From Synechococcus sp. 1G10 (GTDB taxonomy: Bacteria > Cyanobacteriota > Cyanobacteriia > PCC-6307 > Cyanobiaceae), in assembly GCF_002252625.1 (NCBI RefSeq), contig NZ_NQKW01000001.1:248001-312000 (forward strand): 64,000 nucleotides of DNA. Direction: 5' to 3'. Under the pieces are notes generated by a model. It made no database searches. It had not been told where the DNA came from and saw nothing but the letters and a program-made list of their open reading frames with translations. Of the stretch, positions 1 through 10,134 are shown piece by piece (positions within the stretch are counted from its first letter, which is position 1; every line of letters begins with the position of its first letter). A program made the translations under genes and the position numbers.

Positions 1-1236
1 TGGCGGCGTGGCCGGATCCCCCTCGAGCCAGTCGCGGATCACGTAGAGGTAGGTCTGCTTGCTCCAGAGCAGCCCGGCAAAGGCCTGGCGCTGCAGGTCG
101 CGCAGGGGGGGCGGCAAAGAGGGTGGGAGCAGATCGGCGTAGAAAGCATCAGCCTCCTGCAGGCGTGCCAGGAAGACCCCATCGAATTCGTCGCCGAGAG
201 GATCGCCAGGGAGCGGGCGATTCACCAGCCGCAACTTCAGCACCCGGGTTTCCCCCGCTGCCAGGGGCAAGACGTAATGCAGGGACGCTTTGGTCCCGAT
301 TCCTGTCGGATTCACCGCCCCACGGTCGCCCTCCACCACACACTTGTTGATGCCGTCCTTCACAAAGGGGCTGGGGTTCTCAGCGCCGAACAGTCGTCTG
401 GCGTTGGTCTCGTTGTCGGTGACCAGCAGCTCGGGCTGTGCACCCATGGACCCATCGGGGGCAGCGTCGAACGCTTCGGCATGGAGCCAGAACTCCCCCA
501 TGGAGGGGTGACTCGCGAGCAGGCTGAGCCAGGGTGCGGCATCAGGAGCGGAGGCGGCGGCAAATGGCGCGTCAGGCTTAATTGAGGGCCGGGGTTCGTC
601 GCCTCCCCAACTCCAGGTGTTGCGAAACCAGAGGGTGGGCAGCAGATGAAGGGTGTGGGGATCGGGGCCGCGGTTGGTGACGCTGAGGCGCATGAGGATG
701 TCGTCCGGGGACTGCTTGGCGTATTCCACCTGCACGTCGCAGAAGCGATCGCCGGCGAAGATACCTGTGTCCAACAGCTCATATTCGGGGGCGTCGCGGC
801 CCCGGCGGCCGTTCTCCGCGATCAGCTCCTCATAGGGAAAGCAGCCATTGGGGTAGCGGTACAACCCCTTCATATAGCTGTGGCTGGGGGTACTGTCGCG
901 ATAGAAATAGACTTCCTTTACGTCTTCTCCATGGTTGCCTTGGGGGCCGGTCAGACCGAAGAGTCTCTCCTTGAGGAAGGGGTCCAGGCCATTCCAGAGG
1001 GCGAAAGAGAAACAGAGCCGCTGGTGGTTATCGCATAGGCCCAGCAGGCCGTCCTCCCCCCAGCGGTAGGCCCGCGAGCGGGCCTGATCGAACGGGAAAT
1101 GGTTCCAGGCCTCGCCATCGGCGCTGTAGTCCTCCCGCACCGTTCCCCACTGGCGATCGCTGAGGTAAGGGCCCCAGCGGCGCCAGCGGGCTTCATGGAG
1201 ATCGTCGGCAGCCAGCCGCTGCCGTTCAGCCGACAT
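1..1236 (-). CDS. GH63/MGH1-like glycoside hydrolase, N-terminal part (cut by window edge)
   Basis: The minus strand is open from an ATG at 1236 to the window edge, giving 412 codons without a stop. The N-terminus reads MSAERQRLAADDLHEARW, and further in are WNHFPFDQARSRAYRWGEDG and DVKEVYFYRDSTPSHSYM. These match the N-terminal part of the large bacterial 'glucosidase' proteins related to GH63 (MGH1-like family), usually about 850-900 aa. The catalytic (alpha/alpha)6 barrel would lie outside the window. Such enzymes are thought to act on alpha-linked glucosides or mannosides; the substrate here is unknown. No signal peptide is visible, so it is probably cytoplasmic. The family call is confident, the substrate is not. 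Confidence 0.82.
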   Translation of the reverse strand, partial: MSAERQRLAADDLHEARWRRWGPYLSDRQWGTVREDYSADGEAWNHFPFDQARSRAYRWGEDGLLGLCDNHQRLCFSFALWNGLDPFLKERLFGLTGPQGNHGEDVKEVYFYRDSTPSHSYMKGLYRYPNGCFPYEELIAENGRRGRDAPEYELLDTGIFAGDRFCDVQVEYAKQSPDDILMRLSVTNRGPDPHTLHLLPTLWFRNTWSWGGDEPRPSIKPDAPFAAASAPDAAPWLSLLASHPSMGEFWLHAEAFDAAPDGSMGAQPELLVTDNETNARRLFGAENPSPFVKDGINKCVVEGDRGAVNPTGIGTKASLHYVLPLAAGETRVLKLRLVNRPLPGDPLGDEFDGVFLARLQEADAFYADLLPPSLPPPLRDLQRQAFAGLLWSKQTYLYVIRDWLEGDPATPP

Positions 1237-1290
1237 GGTCTGGCACCGCCGGGCCCCGCAGACCCGAGCGCTTCAGATCGGCGGGGTTCA

Positions 1291-1494
1291 TCAGGATCGT
1301 GTCGCGATGGGGCTTACCCCGTAAATCTTCGCCTCTTTGTACACGACTTCGCCGTGTTGGGAGTAGCTGCGAGCCGTGAACGGCACGCTGAACAGCGGGC
1401 CCTGCTCGCTGAATTCCCGCTTCGTTTCATCGATCGTGGCAATCGAGCCGTAACCCGGCGCGGTGCGGGCGATCACCGGCCAAGGATTCCCCAT
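1291..1494 (-). CDS. Hypothetical 67-aa protein, unrecognised
   Basis: A minus-strand frame starts at ATG 1494 and ends at TGA 1291-1293, filling most of the gap between the glycoside hydrolase start and msrA. The peptide is hydrophilic and of balanced composition (it contains PGYGSIATIDETKREF and QHGEVVYKEAKIYG), unlike the Arg/Pro/Ala-rich shadow frames nearby. I do not recognise it. It could be a small conserved protein or the C-terminal remnant of a decayed gene. No ribosome binding site is evident. Its stop overlaps an ATG that opens a 21-codon frame (1226-1291) running into the next gene start. Confidence 0.35.
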   Translation of the reverse strand: MGNPWPVIARTAPGYGSIATIDETKREFSEQGPLFSVPFTARSYSQHGEVVYKEAKIYGVSPIATRS

Positions 1495-1542
1495 CCGATC
1501 GGGACGTTCACGGGTATTCCCTGCATCACCCACGAACCTGTC

Positions 1543-2184
<642 letters not shown>

Positions 2185-2185
2185 G

Positions 2186-2791
2186 ATGGGCCACACCTCC
2201 GCCCGCCAGCCCCACCACCCGCTCTGGACCCGGGCCTCCCACGGTCTCAACCTGCTGGTGCTGATCGTGATGGCCGCCAGCGGCCTGCAGATCTACAACG
2301 CCAACCCCGTCTTCGGGGGCCGCGGAGGCGCCACGGTGCCGGAGCTGTTGACCCTCGGCGGCTGGCTGGCGGGGGGCCGCGACTGGCACTTCGGCTTCAT
2401 GGGCCTCTATGCCCTCAACCTGGGCCTCTGGCTGGCCCTGCTGATCCAGCGGCGCCGCCGGCGCCTGGGGGAACTCGGTGATCTCACCGCCTTGAAGACC
2501 AGCGCCAGTGCCCCCCGGCGAAGGCTCTCGGCCCACCGCCTCGTCTACACCCTGATGCTGATCGTGCTGGCCTTCAGCCTGATCAGTGGTCTGGCGATGT
2601 ACAAACCGGCCCAGTTCTGGTGGCTCACGAGCCTGTTCGCCTTCGCTGAACCGCTCGGGGTGAACAGCTGGCAGGCGCTGCGGGTGAGCCATCTGGCCAC
2701 GATTCCAGCCATGGTCCTGCTGGTGGTGGCGCACATCGTTCTGAGCTGGCGTGTCGGTGGCCTGCGGCTGCTGCGGGCCATGGCCCTTTGA
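2186..2791 (+). CDS. Cytochrome b/b6-type membrane subunit
   Basis: This 201-aa protein has about four transmembrane segments and paired histidines where di-heme b cytochromes of the Ni/Fe-hydrogenase/thiosulfate-reductase family place them: RASHGLNLL near the N-terminus, DWHFGFMGLY, SAHRLVYTLM, and SHLATIPAM with VAHIVLSW near the C-terminus. It probably carries electrons across the membrane for the molybdopterin protein encoded next, whose TTG start overlaps its stop codon by 4 bases. The pair is analogous in layout to MsrQ/MsrP or sulfite-dehydrogenase systems, although this cytochrome does not look like MsrQ (ferric-reductase family). Heme content and partner are inferred. Confidence 0.85.
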   Translation: MGHTSARQPHHPLWTRASHGLNLLVLIVMAASGLQIYNANPVFGGRGGATVPELLTLGGWLAGGRDWHFGFMGLYALNLGLWLALLIQRRRRRLGELGDLTALKTSASAPRRRLSAHRLVYTLMLIVLAFSLISGLAMYKPAQFWWLTSLFAFAEPLGVNSWQALRVSHLATIPAMVLLVVAHIVLSWRVGGLRLLRAMAL

Positions 2792-3477
2792 ACCGGCGCC
2801 AGTTGCTGGGCCTGGGGCTTGGGGGCAGCTCGTCTCTCCTGCTGGGGGGCTGCGCCCTGAATGGCGTCAGCGCAGCGGTGGGCGACGCCAGCCAGCCACT
2901 CAACGAACGCCTCGAAGCCCTGCTCCAGGGCCAGGGGAAGGTGCCCGAATTCAGGCCCGATCAGGTGGAGCCCGCCGCGCTGCTGGTGAACAGCTTCAAC
3001 GGTGTGCCTCGCCTCGATCCAGAGCGCTACCGCCTCCAGGTGAAGGGGCTGGTGGGCCGTCCCCTGAGCCTCGATCTTGGGACCCTCGCCGCCCTGCCCC
3101 AGCACACCTGCGTCATGCGCCATGTCTGCGTGGAGGGCTGGGCGGCGGTGGTGGCCTGGTCGGGGGTGCGGCTGGCGGATGTGCTGCGGCTGGCGCAGCT
3201 TTCGCCCCTGGGCGGCTACCTACTGATTGACTCCGCCGACAGCTACTTCGAGAGCTGGGATCTGGCCTCGGCCCTGCACCCCCAGACCCTCCTCGCCACC
3301 CACATGAACGGGGCGCCCTTGCCGGCAGCGAACGGCGCACCGGTGCGCCTGACCGCGCCGATCAAGCTGGGCTACAAGCAGAGCAAATGGGTCACCGGCC
3401 TGCGGGTGACGGCGCAGCTGGGGGAGCGGCGCGGCACCTGGGAAGACCAGGGCTACGAGTGGTTCGCCGGGCTCTGA
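2788..3477 (+). CDS. Molybdopterin-dependent oxidoreductase (sulfite oxidase/MsrP superfamily), Tat lipoprotein
   Basis: This 229-aa protein has the sulfite-oxidase molybdopterin fold. The segment MRHVCVEGWAAVVAW carries Cys114, at the position of the molybdenum-ligating cysteine of YedY/MsrP and sulfite oxidase. The N-terminus NRRQLLGLG fits a twin-arginine signal and LLLGGC (Cys22) fits a lipobox, so the mature enzyme is probably an exported lipoprotein. The TTG start overlaps the cytochrome stop (TTGA), which implies translational coupling. Substrate is not provable from sequence: methionine sulfoxide (next to an exported MsrA) and sulfite (next to TauE/SafE) are both plausible. Confidence 0.88.
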   Translation: MNRRQLLGLGLGGSSSLLLGGCALNGVSAAVGDASQPLNERLEALLQGQGKVPEFRPDQVEPAALLVNSFNGVPRLDPERYRLQVKGLVGRPLSLDLGTLAALPQHTCVMRHVCVEGWAAVVAWSGVRLADVLRLAQLSPLGGYLLIDSADSYFESWDLASALHPQTLLATHMNGAPLPAANGAPVRLTAPIKLGYKQSKWVTGLRVTAQLGERRGTWEDQGYEWFAGL

Positions 3478-3504
3478 AGCCGGGCCCCGCCCCGTTCGCC
3501 CCAT

Positions 3505-4254
3505 TCACCCCACCAGGCCCAGCAGCTTGCCGCTGGCCAACACCAGCACCAGCGCCAGCAGACGACGGATCAAGAGGGGGCTGAAGCGCCGGCTGCCGCC
3601 GTAGGCCCCCAGGGCCCCAGCAAGGGCCACCGCCAGGGCCATCGGCCCCACCAGGGCAGGCGCAGGCAGCGCGGCGGGCCCTTTGGCGATCAACAACCCC
3701 ATCAGTCCCGCCAGGGAATTGACCAGGATGAACGGTGCCGAGAGGGCCGCCGCCTGGCGGGGCGCCAGCCAGCCCCGCAGGATCACCAATGGCGTGAGGA
3801 AGATGCCGCCGCCCGTGCCGGTGAGGCCGGCCAGCAGGCCGAGCAGGCCGCCGGTGAGAGCGAGACCCAGCGGCCCCGGCACCGCCCCAGCGGACGGTTC
3901 CGGCGGCGCCGGCCGCAGCAGCCGCCAGGCGGAAAGAAGCAACACCAGGCCGATCAGCCTCTGGAGCAGGGGGCCCGGCAGGGCCACCATCCCCCCCACC
4001 AGGGCAGCCGGCACCGAAGCCAGCGCCAGGGGCAGGAACACGGCGCGGCGGAAGTGACCCGCGCCGATGAACTGCCAGCTGGCCAGGCCCGCCACCAGCA
4101 CGTTGAGCACCAGCGCCAGGGGGCGGATCTCAGGGGCCGTGAATCCCGCCAGCGCCAGCACGGCGATGTAGCCGGAGGCGCCGGCATGGCCGACGCCGGC
4201 ATAGAGAAAGGCCACGGCGGCCAGGGCCGCAAGCCACCAGGCGGACAGCTCCAT
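3505..4254 (-). CDS. TauE/SafE family membrane permease
   Basis: This 249-aa polytopic membrane protein shows the internal duplication of the sulfite exporter TauE/SafE family. The first half has GVGHAGASGYIAVLAL and the second GLTGTGGGIFLTPLVIL. Family members export sulfite or sulfonates or act as anion permeases. It follows moaB on the minus strand with 6 bp between them and converges on the molybdopterin oxidoreductase gene. The setting suggests handling of a sulfur oxyanion, but this is inferred from neighbours. Confidence 0.86.
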   Translation of the reverse strand: MELSAWWLAALAAVAFLYAGVGHAGASGYIAVLALAGFTAPEIRPLALVLNVLVAGLASWQFIGAGHFRRAVFLPLALASVPAALVGGMVALPGPLLQRLIGLVLLLSAWRLLRPAPPEPSAGAVPGPLGLALTGGLLGLLAGLTGTGGGIFLTPLVILRGWLAPRQAAALSAPFILVNSLAGLMGLLIAKGPAALPAPALVGPMALAVALAGALGAYGGSRRFSPLLIRRLLALVLVLASGKLLGLVG

Positions 4255-4260
4255 GGCGGA

Positions 4261-4785
4261 TCAGGCCGGCCGGTGCGGCGACTCCCGCAGCCGTGGCAGG
4301 AGCTGCACCAGGTTGCAGGGGGCGGTGGAGGCCTCCAGCTGGGCACCGATCAGCCGATCCCAGGCCGTTGTGACGGCATCGAGGGAACCGGGCAACACGA
4401 AGATCACCGTGCCGTTGGCCACACCGGCGAGGCAGCGGCTCTGCAGGCTGCTGGTGCCGATGGTCTCGAACGAAAGCACCCGGAACAGTTCACCGAACCC
4501 CTCGATCGTCTTGTCGAGCAGGGGCGCCACCGCCTCGGGGGTGCCGTCGCGGCCGGTCAGGCCGGTGCCGCCGGAGCTGATCACCACCTGCACGGCGGGA
4601 TCGGCGATCCAACGGCTCAGCTCGGCGCGCACCCGGTAGCGATCATCGGGAACACGGCGGCGCTCCAACAGCTGATGGCCCGCCGCGCCCAGGCGCTGCT
4701 CCAGGGCATCACCGGAGGGATCCGCCAGCTCAGGATCGGCGCAACGACGATCGGAGATGGTGAGCAGGGCGATCGCAAGGCCCAC
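4261..4785 (-). CDS. moaB: Molybdenum cofactor biosynthesis protein MoaB/MogA family
   Basis: This 174-aa protein carries the molybdopterin-binding fold of MoaB/MogA: LLTISDRRC at the start, VVISSGGTGLTGRDGTPEAV in the middle, and a NGTVIFVLPGSLDAV segment. The family adenylylates molybdopterin before metal insertion. The start is a GTG at 4785; no better upstream start is visible. It probably forms a two-gene unit with the TauE/SafE permease and sits opposite a molybdoenzyme gene, which fits a supply role for that enzyme and for nitrate reductase elsewhere. Confidence 0.88.
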   Translation of the reverse strand: MGLAIALLTISDRRCADPELADPSGDALEQRLGAAGHQLLERRRVPDDRYRVRAELSRWIADPAVQVVISSGGTGLTGRDGTPEAVAPLLDKTIEGFGELFRVLSFETIGTSSLQSRCLAGVANGTVIFVLPGSLDAVTTAWDRLIGAQLEASTAPCNLVQLLPRLRESPHRPA

Positions 4786-4997
4786 GGAGACGGCACCGAA
4801 TGGAAGCCTCGACCCTAGGCACGGGCGTCGGGCGGCTCCATGGGCGTCAGGTCGGAGGTGTCAGGCTCATCGAATCCGGCCCTCCCGCGAGGCCAGCCCC
4901 GTGGCGAGACCCACCCTGTGTTCCTCCCACGGGGGTTGAGGTGTCTCAGCCTTGGGGAGGGGATTTCCTGGGCTGTACATGGTCAACCCTCTGTCCC

Positions 4998-5651
4998 TCA
5001 GAGGCCCTTGGGCTGAATCAACCCGCCGGGACCATTGATAGAGCCGGCCTCCCGCAGCAGGCTCTGGATGATCCGCTCCGATCTGTCGTAGGAGCCTTCA
5101 CCGAAATGGGTGGCACGGAGGCGCCCCTGGGCGTCGATGAAGTAGAAGGCGGGCCAGAAACTGTTGTGGAACGCCTTCCAGATCGCATCGTCGTTGTCGA
5201 TCACCACCGGATAGCTCACCCCAAGCCGCTTGGAGGCCTCCCTCACGTTGGCGAGATCACGCTCGAAGGCGAATTCAGGCGTGTGAACCCCGATCACGAC
5301 AAGGCCGTGATCCTTGTACTTCTGCGCCCAGGCCCGTACATGCGGGAGCGTCCGTATGCAGTTGATGCAGGAGTTCGTCCAGATGTCGATCAGCACCACC
5401 TTCCCCCAGAGCTGGTCGCGGCTCAGCGGTGGGGAATGGAGCCAGGTCGACCCCTTGGGGAAGGGAGGCAAGGTGCCCAGCACCGCCAGCAACCTGCCGG
5501 TGCTGGGCGGTTTCGGAACACCACCTACGGGCTGAACCAGCGACAGCAGAGCCCGCTCGAGCGGACCCGTGTCGGCGAACGCAAAGCGGGCCAGCGAGGC
5601 CTGCTCCAGCCCGAGGGCGATCACGCCCACGGCCACCAGCACCAGGGTCAT
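4998..5651 (-). CDS. Membrane-anchored redoxin (thioredoxin-fold, CINC motif)
   Basis: This 217-aa protein has one N-terminal hydrophobic segment (about residues 1-20) followed by a TlpA/DipZ-like thioredoxin fold. The CxxC pair is Cys95 and Cys98 in WTNSCINCIRTLPHV, a signature of the DipZ C-terminal and related redoxin domains; the cis-proline loop is FWPAFYFID. The domain should face the periplasm or thylakoid lumen and exchange thiols and disulfides. Its start overlaps the end of the inward-rectifier-like gene by 4 bases, so it is the last gene of a four-gene operon. The partner protein is unknown. Confidence 0.85.
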   Translation of the reverse strand: MTLVLVAVGVIALGLEQASLARFAFADTGPLERALLSLVQPVGGVPKPPSTGRLLAVLGTLPPFPKGSTWLHSPPLSRDQLWGKVVLIDIWTNSCINCIRTLPHVRAWAQKYKDHGLVVIGVHTPEFAFERDLANVREASKRLGVSYPVVIDNDDAIWKAFHNSFWPAFYFIDAQGRLRATHFGEGSYDRSERIIQSLLREAGSINGPGGLIQPKGL

Positions 5652-6523
5652 GGGTAGGGATGGGTGCGATCGAGGGCGTCGAGGTCCACCTGGCGGCGCC
5701 CGGAGGCATCGAGGCTGACCAGATCAGCGAAGACCTCGCCGATGCGGATGTCGGTGAGGCGGTAAGCGTTGACCTGCAGCAGCGGGGCTCCGGTCACCGC
5801 ATCGGTGCCCTCCACCTGCACCATGACGAGCCCGTTGGCAAGCTGCAGCCCATCAAGGCCGAGCCGCCGCAACGGGCTCTCCGGCGAAAGTCGGTGGCTG
5901 ATCACCGCCGTGACGTGCAGCTGGGGGGTGTGGCCGTTCAGCACCGGCAGGGCCTCGACCCGCCGCTGGACCACCCCGGGTTCGATCTCCTCATCCCAGA
6001 AGAGGAACATCCCGTAGGACACCTTCAGCCAGTGGCTGGGATCGCGGGTGACGAAGCGGCAGCTGAGGTGCCCGCCGGACCAAGAGCTCAGGCAGAGGGC
6101 CCGGCTGAAGCGCAGCGGTGCGTCCACCCGAGTGAAGCGCAGAAAGAACAGGCCAGTCACCATCGCGTTGGTGAGCAGCCCCACCAGCCGCTCGAGGGCC
6201 GCAACGGCGAGGCCATAGCCCGATGTCAACTCGGCGGCGCGAAAGCTGGCGCTGAACAGGTTCTGCAGAGCGAAGACCAGGCTGGCTGGCAGGCCCATTG
6301 CCCCCATGCCCTTGAGGTGGCCGGCATCCAGCTGAAAAGCCAGGGTGAACATCACCAGTTCGGCCAGATACAGCCCGGTCATGGCCACAAAGAACAGAGG
6401 CCAGGGCATCCGCATCACCATCGACACCGGCTGACGCCAGAGCCGGTGCCAGGGGCTGTGCTGAACACCAAGGGACTGCCAATGGCGGCGGGTCATCGAA
6501 TGGGCCGACGAACGGAAGGGCAT
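5648..6523 (-). CDS. Inward-rectifier K+ channel (KirBac)-like protein lacking the selectivity filter
   Basis: This 291-aa protein has the KirBac architecture: outer helix at about 40-65, pore-loop region 81-104, inner helix 105-130, then an immunoglobulin-like cytoplasmic domain to the end. Inner-helix and C-terminal landmarks are clear (AALERLVGLL, FLRFTRVDAPLRF, SPESPL, VMVQVEGTD, and a late RQVDLDALDRTHPY). The filter position, where KirBac proteins have TVGYGD, reads SASFRA (residues 91-96) in an ungapped alignment anchored by FALQNL before and AALE after. It should therefore not be a K+-selective channel. It overlaps the redoxin gene and follows DUF4079 with a 24-bp gap. Confidence 0.82.
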   Translation of the reverse strand: MPFRSSAHSMTRRHWQSLGVQHSPWHRLWRQPVSMVMRMPWPLFFVAMTGLYLAELVMFTLAFQLDAGHLKGMGAMGLPASLVFALQNLFSASFRAAELTSGYGLAVAALERLVGLLTNAMVTGLFFLRFTRVDAPLRFSRALCLSSWSGGHLSCRFVTRDPSHWLKVSYGMFLFWDEEIEPGVVQRRVEALPVLNGHTPQLHVTAVISHRLSPESPLRRLGLDGLQLANGLVMVQVEGTDAVTGAPLLQVNAYRLTDIRIGEVFADLVSLDASGRRQVDLDALDRTHPYP

Positions 6524-6547: not shown

Positions 6548-7258
6548 TTAAGGAGCGGGCGAAGGCGCGAGGGTTGGACAGCGCTGGGCCTGGAAATCAC
6601 AGGCATAGACCGCCGGCTTCTGCCAGCTGAGCGGGATCTCGAGCAGATCCCGGGGCCCACTGATTCCCTGGGCCAGGAAGATCACGGCCGCCAGGGCATT
6701 GGCGCTGACGTGCAACCGCCTCCAGCGCAGATGCTTATGGATCTCCGGGCGGCAGGCCACCGAGAACAGCATCAGGCCCGTGAGGCCAACCCCGCCCCAG
6801 AAGTGCGACTGCCAGAAGACAGGATCGAGGGGGTTGTCGCTGAGGCGGAACACCTCCGGCTGCAGCCCCAGGCCGATCACCCCCGCCCAGCAGAGCAAGG
6901 CAAAGCTGGCCCGATAGGGGGGTTGCTTCACCCGCCAGAGGGCCGCCAGAGCGACCCCGGATCCGATCAGCACCATCACCATCAGCGCCAGCCGCGAGCT
7001 TCCCCCCTCAAAGGATGAGATGGGGTGCTTGGTGGCGATCACCACCGCCTCGGCCAGCAGCACGATCGCCACCACCGAACCCGCCAGCCACTTGCCGAGA
7101 TCCGCATGATCACGGCCCACCGTGGGCGGGTGCTTGGCCTGGGTGAGGCGGCGGTCCCGTGTCTGCTGCGCCAGCCGCAGCACCATGCCCAGGAGGGGAT
7201 AGACAAGCACCACCGCCAGGGCCGGGTGAAGCAGCCAAAGCCAGTCGACGGATTGCAT
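6548..7258 (-). CDS. DUF4079 family membrane protein
   Basis: This 236-aa protein has about five or six hydrophobic helices and several membrane-edge histidines: LLHPALAVV near residue 11, ATKHPISSF, FWQSHFWGG, and RRLHVSANALAAV. These fit the cyanobacterial DUF4079 family, whose spaced histidines recall b561-type heme cytochromes. Heme binding is inference. The start lies 3 bp after the DM13 stop, so the two are almost certainly cotranslated. The C-terminal tail contains two cysteines (YACDFQAQRC) that could form a disulfide or meet the redoxin encoded downstream. Confidence 0.78.
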   Translation of the reverse strand: MQSVDWLWLLHPALAVVLVYPLLGMVLRLAQQTRDRRLTQAKHPPTVGRDHADLGKWLAGSVVAIVLLAEAVVIATKHPISSFEGGSSRLALMVMVLIGSGVALAALWRVKQPPYRASFALLCWAGVIGLGLQPEVFRLSDNPLDPVFWQSHFWGGVGLTGLMLFSVACRPEIHKHLRWRRLHVSANALAAVIFLAQGISGPRDLLEIPLSWQKPAVYACDFQAQRCPTLAPSPAP

Positions 7259-7261
7259 GGC

Positions 7262-7735
7262 TCAGGGCTTCAGGGGGGCCCAGGCCATCGTGGCGTTGAA
7301 TTTCTTGCACCAGATCAGCACCGAACCCTGCTTGCTCAGGTCGATCGAGGCGGGAATCACATAGCTCTGGGCACCCGAGGCGGATTTCAACGAGGCGAGG
7401 ATCGTGTAAGAGCCGGCCTTGAGTGGGTAGCCAGGGGCCTTCGTGCTCGCCAGAGGTATGGCCGACGGGCTGAAGATCACCTTCAGGTCGGGAGCCATGT
7501 CGTTGGTCTTGAAGTCACTGCTGAGCACCAGCATCTGCTTACCGCCTTCCTTCTTGACCATGAAGCTGCCGCTGACGGGCGCCTCGGCCTTGCGGAAGCT
7601 GTGCTTAACCATGGCGCCAGCTGGAGCCATCATTTTGTCCTCTTTCATCATGCTCTGCGCATGAACGGGAACAGCGGAACCGCCGAGCTGGGCCAGGGCC
7701 AGGATGCCGATCAGGGTTGTCTTGAGAGCCGTCAT
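7262..7735 (-). CDS. DM13 domain protein, exported
   Basis: This 157-aa protein begins at ATG 7735 with a signal peptide (MTALKTTLIGILALAQL ending near VHAQS). The rest matches the DM13 domain: VSGSFMVKK, LSSDFKTNDMAPDLKVIF, LKAGSYTI, and the C-terminal SVLIWCKKFNATMAWAPL with the nearly invariant cysteine. DM13 has been proposed to be an electron-transfer domain and in animals is found with DOMON and cytochrome b561 domains. Here it heads an operon with a possible heme membrane protein and a redoxin. The frame extends upstream, but the signal peptide fixes the start. Confidence 0.85.
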   Translation of the reverse strand: MTALKTTLIGILALAQLGGSAVPVHAQSMMKEDKMMAPAGAMVKHSFRKAEAPVSGSFMVKKEGGKQMLVLSSDFKTNDMAPDLKVIFSPSAIPLASTKAPGYPLKAGSYTILASLKSASGAQSYVIPASIDLSKQGSVLIWCKKFNATMAWAPLKP

Positions 7736-7809
7736 CACAAATGCAGACAGAGTGGGGAAGCCAAGGCCATGAACCGAAGCGGCATGGTCCTCAGACTCTC
7801 CCTGTACCG

Positions 7810-8793
7810 ATGAGCGCACCGATCGGATTGGTGCTGAGGGATCCAGGTTGGCGGCGAGGTCTTCCCCTCGGGCTGTACGTGCTGCTCAAGGGGCTTGACG
7901 CCACGGCGCTCAAGGCCCTGCAGACCTATGGCGCCGCCCACCCGGTGAACGGTGAAAACCCGATCAGCTTCTGCAACGTGTTTTTCGTGGCCCAGCTGGT
8001 GATCGGACTGGCCTCCCTGATCCCAGGCCGGGCCTCGATCCAGCCAGGGATAGCACTGCTGAACCGGGCGGATCGAAAACTGCTGTTCATCGATGCTGGC
8101 CTAGGGCTGTTTATCGGCCCGATCGCCTATTACTTCGCCCTCGAATCACTGTCGGTGATCAGCCAGACCCTCCTGTTCGCCCTGGTTCTGCCCATTTCAG
8201 CCCTGCTGGCCCGTCAGTTCCTGGCTGAAACCCTGCCGAGGGGCTTTTGGCTCAGTCTCAGCCTGATCGCCGTTGGGCTGTTGGTGCCAGGAGGAGCGAT
8301 GGCGGCGGTGGGCGGGCACGGCGATCAGCTGAGCGGTTATGCCTGGGCCCTGACCGGGGTGCTGGCCTTCGGCTCCACAGCCGTGACTGGCCGAACCATC
8401 GCCACCCGGCATTGGCCGACCGTGGTCACGGTGGGGATCCCCTCAACGATCTCGGCGCTGCTGTTCGGAATCATCGCTCTGGTGCTCTTCGGCCCCGGAC
8501 ATTTCCACCTGCTCAACCTGCGCTGGGTCGTCGGCGTGATCCTGATCTACGGCCTGACCCTTTCCCTGGGAAGCACTGTGGCCCTGGGACTGGCCTACCG
8601 CCAGAACAATGTGGCGACCGTGTCGATCTGGGGCTCACTGACGATCGTGGTGGCGATCGCCAGCGCCTCCCTGATTCTTGAGGAGCCGCTTGGCATGGCC
8701 ACCGTGGCGGGGGTGGCGTTCCTGCTGGCGGGAATCATGGTCAGCCACAGCTCCAACAGATCCGATCCGGTCCTTCGCCGGTACATCTCCTGA
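7810..8793 (+). CDS. DMT-family (EamA-type) membrane transporter
   Basis: This 327-aa protein has about ten hydrophobic segments arranged as two EamA repeats, typical of drug/metabolite transporters and nucleotide-sugar-like permeases. It starts at ATG 7810; the frame is open to 7741 but those codons overlap the spacer opposite the DM13 start. Features include ALESLSVISQTLLFAL in repeat one and YRQNNVATVSIWGSL in repeat two, the usual position of the second conserved helix pair. The substrate cannot be inferred. It is divergent from the DM13 operon and lies upstream of the sigma factor gene. Confidence 0.82.
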   Translation: MSAPIGLVLRDPGWRRGLPLGLYVLLKGLDATALKALQTYGAAHPVNGENPISFCNVFFVAQLVIGLASLIPGRASIQPGIALLNRADRKLLFIDAGLGLFIGPIAYYFALESLSVISQTLLFALVLPISALLARQFLAETLPRGFWLSLSLIAVGLLVPGGAMAAVGGHGDQLSGYAWALTGVLAFGSTAVTGRTIATRHWPTVVTVGIPSTISALLFGIIALVLFGPGHFHLLNLRWVVGVILIYGLTLSLGSTVALGLAYRQNNVATVSIWGSLTIVVAIASASLILEEPLGMATVAGVAFLLAGIMVSHSSNRSDPVLRRYIS

Positions 8794-8833
8794 CGATGCC
8801 GCAGCGACTGCCTGCATGGGAGTCCAACCATCC

Positions 8834-9400
8834 ATGGCTGATTCGCCGATCCGGGCAGCGTTGGATCAGGCGCTGATGGCACACCAGCCTCCCCATCACA
8901 ATCTGGCCGGCCTCTATGACGCCTGTTCAGGTCCGGTGTATCGCCTGGCCATGATGCTGTGCGGCTCCAGCCAGGAGGCGGAAGATCTCTGCCACGACGT
9001 CTTTCTGCGTTATTGGCAGCAGGACCGCTATGAGCCCTCCCGTGGACCGGTGCTGGCCTATCTGTTGCTGTTGACCCGCTCGATGGCGATCAACCGGATC
9101 AACCAGCGCAAAAACCGCTGGCAGCTGGTGCAACGCTGGTCGGAGCAGTTGTTTCCCAGGGCCGTGGCCAGTCCCCAGGCCAGCGCTGAGGCCGACGATC
9201 TGGCCGAAAGGGTTCGAGCGGCTCTCGCTGCGATTCCGACCAATCAACGCGAGGTGCTGGAGATGGCTTACTACGAAGGCCTGAGCCAGTCGGCCATCGC
9301 CGAGCGGTTGCAACAGCCCCTCGGCACCGTCAAGACCCGCTCCCGACAGGGCCTGATCCGCCTGCGGGAGCTGCTGATCGATTTCCGGAGCACCCCATGA
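8834..9400 (+). CDS. ECF-type RNA polymerase sigma factor
   Basis: This 188-aa protein has sigma region 2 (LYDACSGPVYRLAMMLCG and EAEDLCHDVFLRYW) and region 4 (IPTNQREVLEMAYYEGLSQ, then a helix-turn-helix ending GTVKTRSRQGLIRLRELL), with no region 3, so it is a group 4 (ECF) factor. I chose ATG 8834; an in-frame ATG at 8816 is possible. The stop overlaps the anti-sigma gene by 4 bases (ATGA), the standard arrangement of a regulator and its inhibitor. It probably controls an envelope or redox stress response; the neighbouring DM13 operon is a candidate target. Confidence 0.9.
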   Translation: MADSPIRAALDQALMAHQPPHHNLAGLYDACSGPVYRLAMMLCGSSQEAEDLCHDVFLRYWQQDRYEPSRGPVLAYLLLLTRSMAINRINQRKNRWQLVQRWSEQLFPRAVASPQASAEADDLAERVRAALAAIPTNQREVLEMAYYEGLSQSAIAERLQQPLGTVKTRSRQGLIRLRELLIDFRSTP

Positions 9401-10134
9401 ACCCCCACGACAGCAACCCGGAGAGCTCAAGCGACGCCCTGCTGGCTGGCCATGCCCTCGGTGACCTGGATGCAGCCGAACGGGAGCAGCTCTCGTCATT
9501 GCTGCTTCGCAGGCCTGAGCTGCGCGATCGCCTCGGCGAATTCCAGACCACCCTGGAACTGCTCCCCCTGGCCTTGCCGGCGGCGACGCCACCGTTGCGC
9601 CTCCGCCACCGGCTGCTGGAGCAGCGGGAACGGCAACCCAGCCCCCCGGCCAGGCCCTTCGCCTGGGGGATCACAGCCCTGCTGGGCGTTGCCGTGATCG
9701 GCCTTGGCCTCGTGCAGCAGCAGACCAACCGGCAACTGGCCCAGCTTCAGAACCAACTCAGCAGCCAGGCTCAGGGTGAGATCCGCTCAGCCTGGCCAAG
9801 CAGCGCCACCGCGCCGAGGCGCCTGCCGCTGCAAACCACCACCGCCGGCCTCCCGACGAACGGGGAGGTGATGGTGACGGGCAACCCGACCCACAACGTG
9901 CTGATGTTGAACAATCTCCCGCCAGCCCCACCCCGACACTTCTATCGGCTTTGGGCCAGGGTCGATGGCGAGCTGGTTGGCTGCGTCGCCTTCGTGCCCA
10001 CGGAGCAGGGCCATGTGGCGATGTTGATCCCACCGATGCCCACCAGCCTGGCCACCAGCGTGAGCGTGAGCCTGGAAACCGATCCGATCGGCCGTTCGCC
10101 CACCGGGCCGATGCTGCTGAGCAGCAGCCTCTGA
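9397..10134 (+). CDS. Anti-sigma factor, RskA-like
   Basis: This 245-aa single-pass membrane protein has a cytoplasmic N-terminus with the anti-sigma helix [20 protein letters not shown], a transmembrane segment at about 88-107 ([17 protein letters not shown]) and an extracytoplasmic domain with [15 protein letters not shown], a VSVSLE strand and a closing PTGPMLL turn typical of RskA C-terminal domains. There is no zinc HxxxCxxC motif. It is translationally coupled to the upstream sigma factor. Release of sigma would need regulated proteolysis or a ligand, neither visible here. Confidence 0.85.

Follow-up and report, generated by a model that had tools for sequence, protein, structure and literature searches.

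A picocyanobacterial clade of Kir-type proteins with a replaced potassium filter and a redox-gene neighborhood

The window, i.e. the whole 64,000-nucleotide stretch of Synechococcus sp. 1G10 DNA analyzed here, encodes a Kir-type protein in which the K+ filter TVGYGD is replaced by SASFRA, while the remaining Kir frame is kept, as indicated by alignment, Pfam and the AlphaFold2 (AF2) model. Together with its intact relatives it forms a well-supported clade of 26 members, none of which has the TxGYG signature. We tentatively propose, with a probability of about 0.45, that it is a two-helix Kir subunit that lost K+ selectivity once and was selected as a poorly selective, NirBac-type monovalent-cation pore, possibly switched by redox state.

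Fold and filter of the Kir-type protein

The coding sequence and its parts are as follows.

5648..6523, minus strand: Kir-type protein with replaced filter, 291 aa (open reading frame, Pfam, phmmer, fold match)
6410..6430, minus strand: slide helix, residues 32-38 (predicted, AF2/DSSP)
6332..6403, minus strand: outer helix TM1, residues 41-64 (predicted, AF2)
6257..6286, minus strand: pore helix, residues 80-89 (predicted, AF2)
6236..6253, minus strand: filter position, residues 91-96, SASFRA replacing TVGYGD (phmmer alignment, relatives)
6212..6226, minus strand: TSGYG string, residues 100-104, at the TM2 start (AF2, relatives)
6134..6220, minus strand: inner helix TM2, residues 102-130 (predicted, AF2)
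6143..6145, minus strand: F127, bundle-crossing Phe position (aligned with KirBac1.1 F146)
5666..6133, minus strand: cytoplasmic Ig-like (IRK_C) domain, residues 131-286, beta-rich (Pfam, AF2, fold match)

The reading frame, which starts with ATG, has the same limits as in the preliminary description, where the protein had been compared with KirBac channels along its length. A phmmer search bore this out: residues 27-289 align with residues 46-308 of KirBac1.1 (E = 3e-19), free of gaps in the pore, and can also be aligned with KirBac3.1. Pfam IRK_C matches the protein with 23.7 bits against a cut-off of 22.5; NCBIfam gave no match for the Kir-type, DUF4079 and DM13 proteins of the window. The AF2 model, a monomer computed from an input alignment of 14 sequences, has a mean pLDDT of 75.8 and a pTM of 0.51, with a pLDDT of about 68 in the filter stretch, and its best match among solved structures is KirBac3.1, with a Z-score of 17.5 and an RMSD of 4.7 over 255 residues. 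As the model is monomeric and of low confidence at the filter, a pore radius is not derivable from it. A second model, of a member of group B (one of the two groups of the clade, see below), is consistent in secondary structure with that of the window protein. The protein therefore has the architecture of the Kir/KirBac (IRK) fold, in which a slide helix precedes two transmembrane helices around a pore helix, followed by an Ig-like C-terminal domain.

Compared to KirBac1.1, KirBac3.1 and canonical cyanobacterial Kirs, with which it shares about 20-33% identity, the protein has the same slide helix, TM1, pore helix, TM2 with Phe gate and Ig-like domain, but differs in the filter, which is TxGYG or SIGYG in those proteins, and at positions 144 and 155. 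Trp41 in TM1 is invariant in both the clade and the canonical Kirs. F127 corresponds to F146 of KirBac1.1, the bundle-crossing gate of that channel, and Phe occupies this position in all 52 sequences compared (26 clade members and 26 canonical Kirs). In addition, two cavity-facing positions are polar in group A, namely N/T119 and T123, which align with I138 and T142 of KirBac1.1.

At the filter, T-V-G-Y-G-D of KirBac1.1 aligns without a gap to S91-A92-S93-F94-R95-A96, exactly the substitution that had been read from the DNA. A TxGYG (or GFG) filter is thus absent from this site. SASFRA is identical in the two closest relatives, which belong to other genera and share 92-93% identity, and relatives at 65-70% identity have SASFQ[STP], so that a sequencing error or a compensated frameshift is excluded, the more so with intact genes in 26 genomes. 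The filter reads S-A-S-F-[RQ] in group A (n=15), with V-A-S-L-S as the single outlier, and mostly A-N-G-F-x in group B (n=11), with the variants N-N-G-F, A-N-A-F and A-N-T-F; Gly is entirely absent from the stretch in group A, and the first Gly is mostly kept in group B. The replacement of the carbonyl-lined TxGYG ladder by small or polar side chains and a Phe would make the filter wider or hydrated.

A literal TxGYG string, TSGYG, occurs nearby at residues 100-104. It was rejected as a displaced filter and regarded as a chance match, because it is located at the predicted start of TM2 and is not conserved, the relatives at 65-70% identity having TSIYT, NSLYT or NSPYT.

Distribution, history and selection

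A survey of 400 genomes of the picocyanobacterial family revealed intact relatives in 26 of them, with 41-100% identity to the window protein, and the remaining full-length Kir homologues of these genomes do not exceed 33-34%. In a maximum-likelihood tree of the 26 clade members and 26 canonical Kirs from the family and the class, all 26 members fall on one side of a branch with a support of 100/100, on a long branch apart from the canonical Kirs; group A has a support of 95/83 and group B of 97/99. After removal of residues 81-103, the single split is still supported at 100, and group A falls to 55. The simplest history suggested by these sequences would be that the K+ filter was lost a single time, by an ancestor belonging to the family. 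The preliminary description had named as support a clade that shares the loss of TVGYG and keeps the C-terminal domain, which is what the tree recovered, and as a contrary case an intact filter in an otherwise similar gene, which was sought among the relatives without success (TxGYG in 0 of 26).

Among the matches listed for a class-wide sample of 291 genomes, all clade members belong to the family; the scores drop from 466 bits in the clade to 163 bits, and the best proteins below this gap all have GYG. Likewise, a scan for close relatives in 84,980 species genomes, including other phyla, returned picocyanobacteria only, among the matches listed, under the record names Cyanobium, Synechococcus, Vulcanococcus, Aphanothece and uncultured relatives. 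A scan of viral contigs yielded no clade member.

Pairwise dN/dS values of 0.06-0.31 over the whole gene indicate that it is under purifying selection. The two closest relatives do not differ from the window protein in any amino acid over residues 81-103 (dN = 0), at a dS of 0.28. In group A, the pore helix and filter are conserved at least as well as most other parts of the protein; in group B their conservation is somewhat lower. The gene is dispensable in some strains, because five relatives hold disrupted copies (G007, G001, G362, G308 and G220).

At the broken loci (L034, L036, L095, L096 and L097), the Kir-like gene carries deletions, frame changes or a stop, and several of the loci with a disrupted gene still keep the rest of the redox cluster described below. 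In the same-genus genome G001 (L036), the segment corresponding to window positions 3478-6361 is missing but for a Kir fragment, with flanks of 93% identity, whereas most of it is present at 87-91% identity in other genera (L063 and L064), a pattern of deletion or exchange of a Kir-containing block.

Gene neighborhood and a clade-specific cysteine pair

The genes around the Kir-type gene are as follows.

1099..2184, plus strand: MsrA, with a signal peptide by eye and the real start probably near 1519
2186..2791, plus strand: cytochrome b561-type protein (Pfam)
2788..3477, plus strand: YedY/MsrP-like molybdopterin oxidoreductase (Pfam)
4998..5651, minus strand: TlpA/ResA-like thioredoxin, 217 aa, its start overlapping the Kir stop (ATGA)
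6548..7258, minus strand: DUF4079 membrane protein (Pfam)
7262..7819, minus strand: protein with a DM13 domain (Pfam: electron transfer DM13), probably starting near 7735
7741..8793, plus strand: EamA-type transporter, divergent from the DM13 operon
8678..9400, plus strand: ECF sigma factor
9397..10134, plus strand: RskA-type anti-sigma factor

The redox neighbors pointed out earlier for the window proved to be linked to the gene across genera: in group A, 14 of 15 genomes have a DM13 gene no more than about 6 kb away from the Kir gene, and in group B, where the linkage is weaker, 4 of 11 do. Over whole genomes, DM13 is found in 21 of the 26 carriers compared to 55 of the 374 others (Fisher p = 2e-12, a value that ignores relatedness). 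The next gene varies in group B, being a flavin/2Fe-2S reductase (L084), cytochrome b561 plus YedY (L082 and L083) or KatG (L035 and L079). The reductase (L084 8123-9439) is membrane-anchored; in group B genomes its gene separates the Kir-like gene from DUF4079. Two group B genomes have a KatG catalase-peroxidase gene as the direct neighbor of the Kir-like one (L035 5999-8188 and L079 4785-7154).

The TlpA/ResA-like protein has 418 aa in close relatives (L063 8446-9702), in which the thioredoxin domain follows a DsbD/CcdA-like membrane part. This part is absent from the 217-aa window copy, whose start codon and end match those of the relatives, so that about 200 residues have apparently been lost in frame.

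On the other side, the ECF sigma and RskA genes adjoin the Kir operon. The cluster of ECF sigma, RskA, EamA, DM13 and DUF4079 genes is conserved in freshwater picocyanobacteria (window 7262-10134, L032 and L063-L073), and a description of it was not found in the literature searched. We regard this cluster as a candidate envelope redox regulon. For the SigK-RskA pair of Mycobacterium tuberculosis, a redox effect has been described (PMC7509140). With less confidence, we suggest that the ECF sigma factor may also control the Kir operon; a search by eye for a promoter common to the Kir and sigma operons gave nothing firm. At the loci where the Kir-like gene is the first of its operon (L067, L069-L073, L032 and L066), CTACTGTT and then a GTCGGCATCGG-like element are conserved just before the start, a block that is a possible ECF promoter.

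Moreover, two cysteines of the cytoplasmic domain distinguish the clade.

6092..6094, minus strand: Cys144, clade-specific, in 26 of 26 members versus 0 of 26 canonical Kirs
6059..6061, minus strand: Cys155, in 26 of 26 members, Phe in 26 of 26 canonical Kirs

Canonical Kirs mostly have Thr or Val at position 144. In about half of the 26 members, Cys144 and Cys155 are the sole cysteines. The strands that hold them comprise residues 139-147 and 152-159 in the window protein (AF2) and 132-140 and 145-152 in the group B model, and the two cysteines are predicted to be opposite each other across a cytoplasmic hairpin, as read from the secondary-structure limits in both models rather than from measured distances. 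The pair may serve as a thiol/disulfide switch that transmits the cytosolic redox state to the gate. The DsbD/TlpA-like neighbor is not an obvious direct partner, because its action is expected at the outer side, whereas the pair is cytoplasmic.

Possible function of the replaced filter

Conducting Kir homologues without the filter are already known, namely NirBac1.x and TbIRK, and the phenomenon itself is not new. NirBac1.1 and NirBac1.2 assemble into stable oligomers although they have no TxGYG, and discriminate little between Na+, K+ and Rb+, all of which they conduct; the conduction described for NirBacs is stimulated by PG. NirBac1.1, NirBac1.2 and NirBac2.1 come from Anaeromyxobacter and Gemmatimonas (PMC4607889). 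Like these, the window protein is a prokaryotic Kir homologue over its length, in which every Kir domain is present and the filter bears no relation to TxGYG, a likeness to NirBac1.1 and NirBac1.2 that follows their published description rather than P-loop letters and sets measured conduction beside a sequence and a model. The NirBacs differ in belonging to other phyla, and the filter of NirBac2.1 is TTGTD in the published text, compared to SASF or ANGF here. Unlike in the NirBacs, the replacement is common to a 26-member clade and goes together with a Cys pair found only in that clade and with a cluster of redox genes. As far as our searches show, three things are new: a replacement fixed throughout a clade in two related filter types, the clade-specific Cys pair, and the linkage to a redox cluster associated with a sigma factor. 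Filter loss in Kirs was previously known from a few isolated genes (NirBac and TbIRK). The clade described here is densely sampled and has the loss fixed in two forms, one mostly with the first Gly and one with none, which makes the way a selective pore becomes non-selective amenable to ancestral-sequence and mutational tests.

The pore that we propose would be a tetramer retaining the outer and inner helices, Phe gate and cytoplasmic domain of the modeled fold, and it would conduct monovalent cations with poor selectivity. This reading is supported by the conduction of NirBac1.1 and NirBac1.2 in spite of the missing TxGYG, and by Ser93 of group A, which equals the weaver change of GIRK2 (G156S in mouse, G154S in human), where the first Gly of GYG is replaced by Ser and K+ selectivity is abolished (PMC9001731). 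The weaver channel differs in that its filter is intact apart from one disease mutation, whereas the clade has an evolved replacement. At position 95, where canonical Kirs have Gly, group A has Arg or Gln, and the ring that four R95 would form in the window protein could be repulsive to cations. The preliminary description had also held that the protein was repurposed. Filter loss in a kept frame, the clade and the redox linkage speak for this, but repurposed need not mean that it is no longer a channel, since NirBac and TbIRK can conduct without TxGYG.

The observed neighborhood suggests that the pore may be part of an envelope oxidative-stress cluster. A more specific version, in which a Cys144-Cys155 disulfide switches a redox-gated non-selective pore dedicated to an ECF-sigma/RskA-controlled envelope oxidative-stress system, is rather unlikely to hold in all its parts. 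Nevertheless, the Cys pair and the redox neighborhood provide a concrete hypothesis on the purpose of a bacterial Kir-type pore, which, if true, would have turned a Kir channel into a redox-responsive leak in oxygenic phototrophs.

Somewhat unlikely, and yet the strongest of the alternatives, is a non-conducting sensor or scaffold, in which the pore would be a relic and the tetramer with its cytoplasmic domain would sense redox state or organize membrane redox proteins. It would account for the complete loss of the filter, the Cys pair, the many clade-specific invariant residues of the cytoplasmic domain and the conserved redox neighborhood. It is less consistent with the P-loop of group A, which shows no relaxation and for which dN is close to 0 in close pairs, with the retained Phe gate and polar cavity positions, and with conduction by NirBacs whose P-loops are equally foreign (PMC4607889). 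From the sequences we lean towards a pore, as the pore helix, the Phe gate and the polar positions of the cavity have all been retained.

It is improbable that the unusual filter keeps a moderate K+ selectivity. TbIRK of Trypanosoma brucei, a Kir homologue that likewise lacks the signature sequence, has the filter GGYVG and remains K+-selective, with a K+/Na+ ratio above 7 (PMC5429665), and group B has mostly retained an aromatic residue along with the first Gly (A-N-G-F-x). However, the Gly pattern of TbIRK is absent from the clade (SASF, VASL, ANGF, NNGF, ANAF or ANTF), group A has no Gly in the stretch, and the first-Gly-to-Ser change abolishes the selectivity of GIRK2.

The source genome encodes a second Kir on another contig, with the canonical filter GSIGYGV (L001/L027), and several relatives likewise encode a canonical Kir (SIGYGV), which would allow the replaced-filter protein to join it as a modifier subunit, altering its selectivity or silencing it. 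A search of 13 carrier genomes found a canonical Kir in the window genome and two others; it is absent from 10 of the 12 further carriers, including one closed single contig (G017) and others that are nearly complete. In these ten strains the replaced-filter protein must act without a canonical subunit, so that an obligate heteromer is excluded and a modifier subunit is very improbable as a general role.

A decaying pseudochannel or a sequence artefact, to which the five disrupted copies and the missing membrane part of the downstream thioredoxin might point, is hardly credible given the 26 intact frames and the invariant pore region among the closest relatives, and is refuted for the clade by the dN/dS values.

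"Inward rectifier potassium channels" have been counted among the traits of freshwater picocyanobacteria (PMC9361551); the annotation does not separate the two kinds of protein, and those counted may include some that are not K+-selective.
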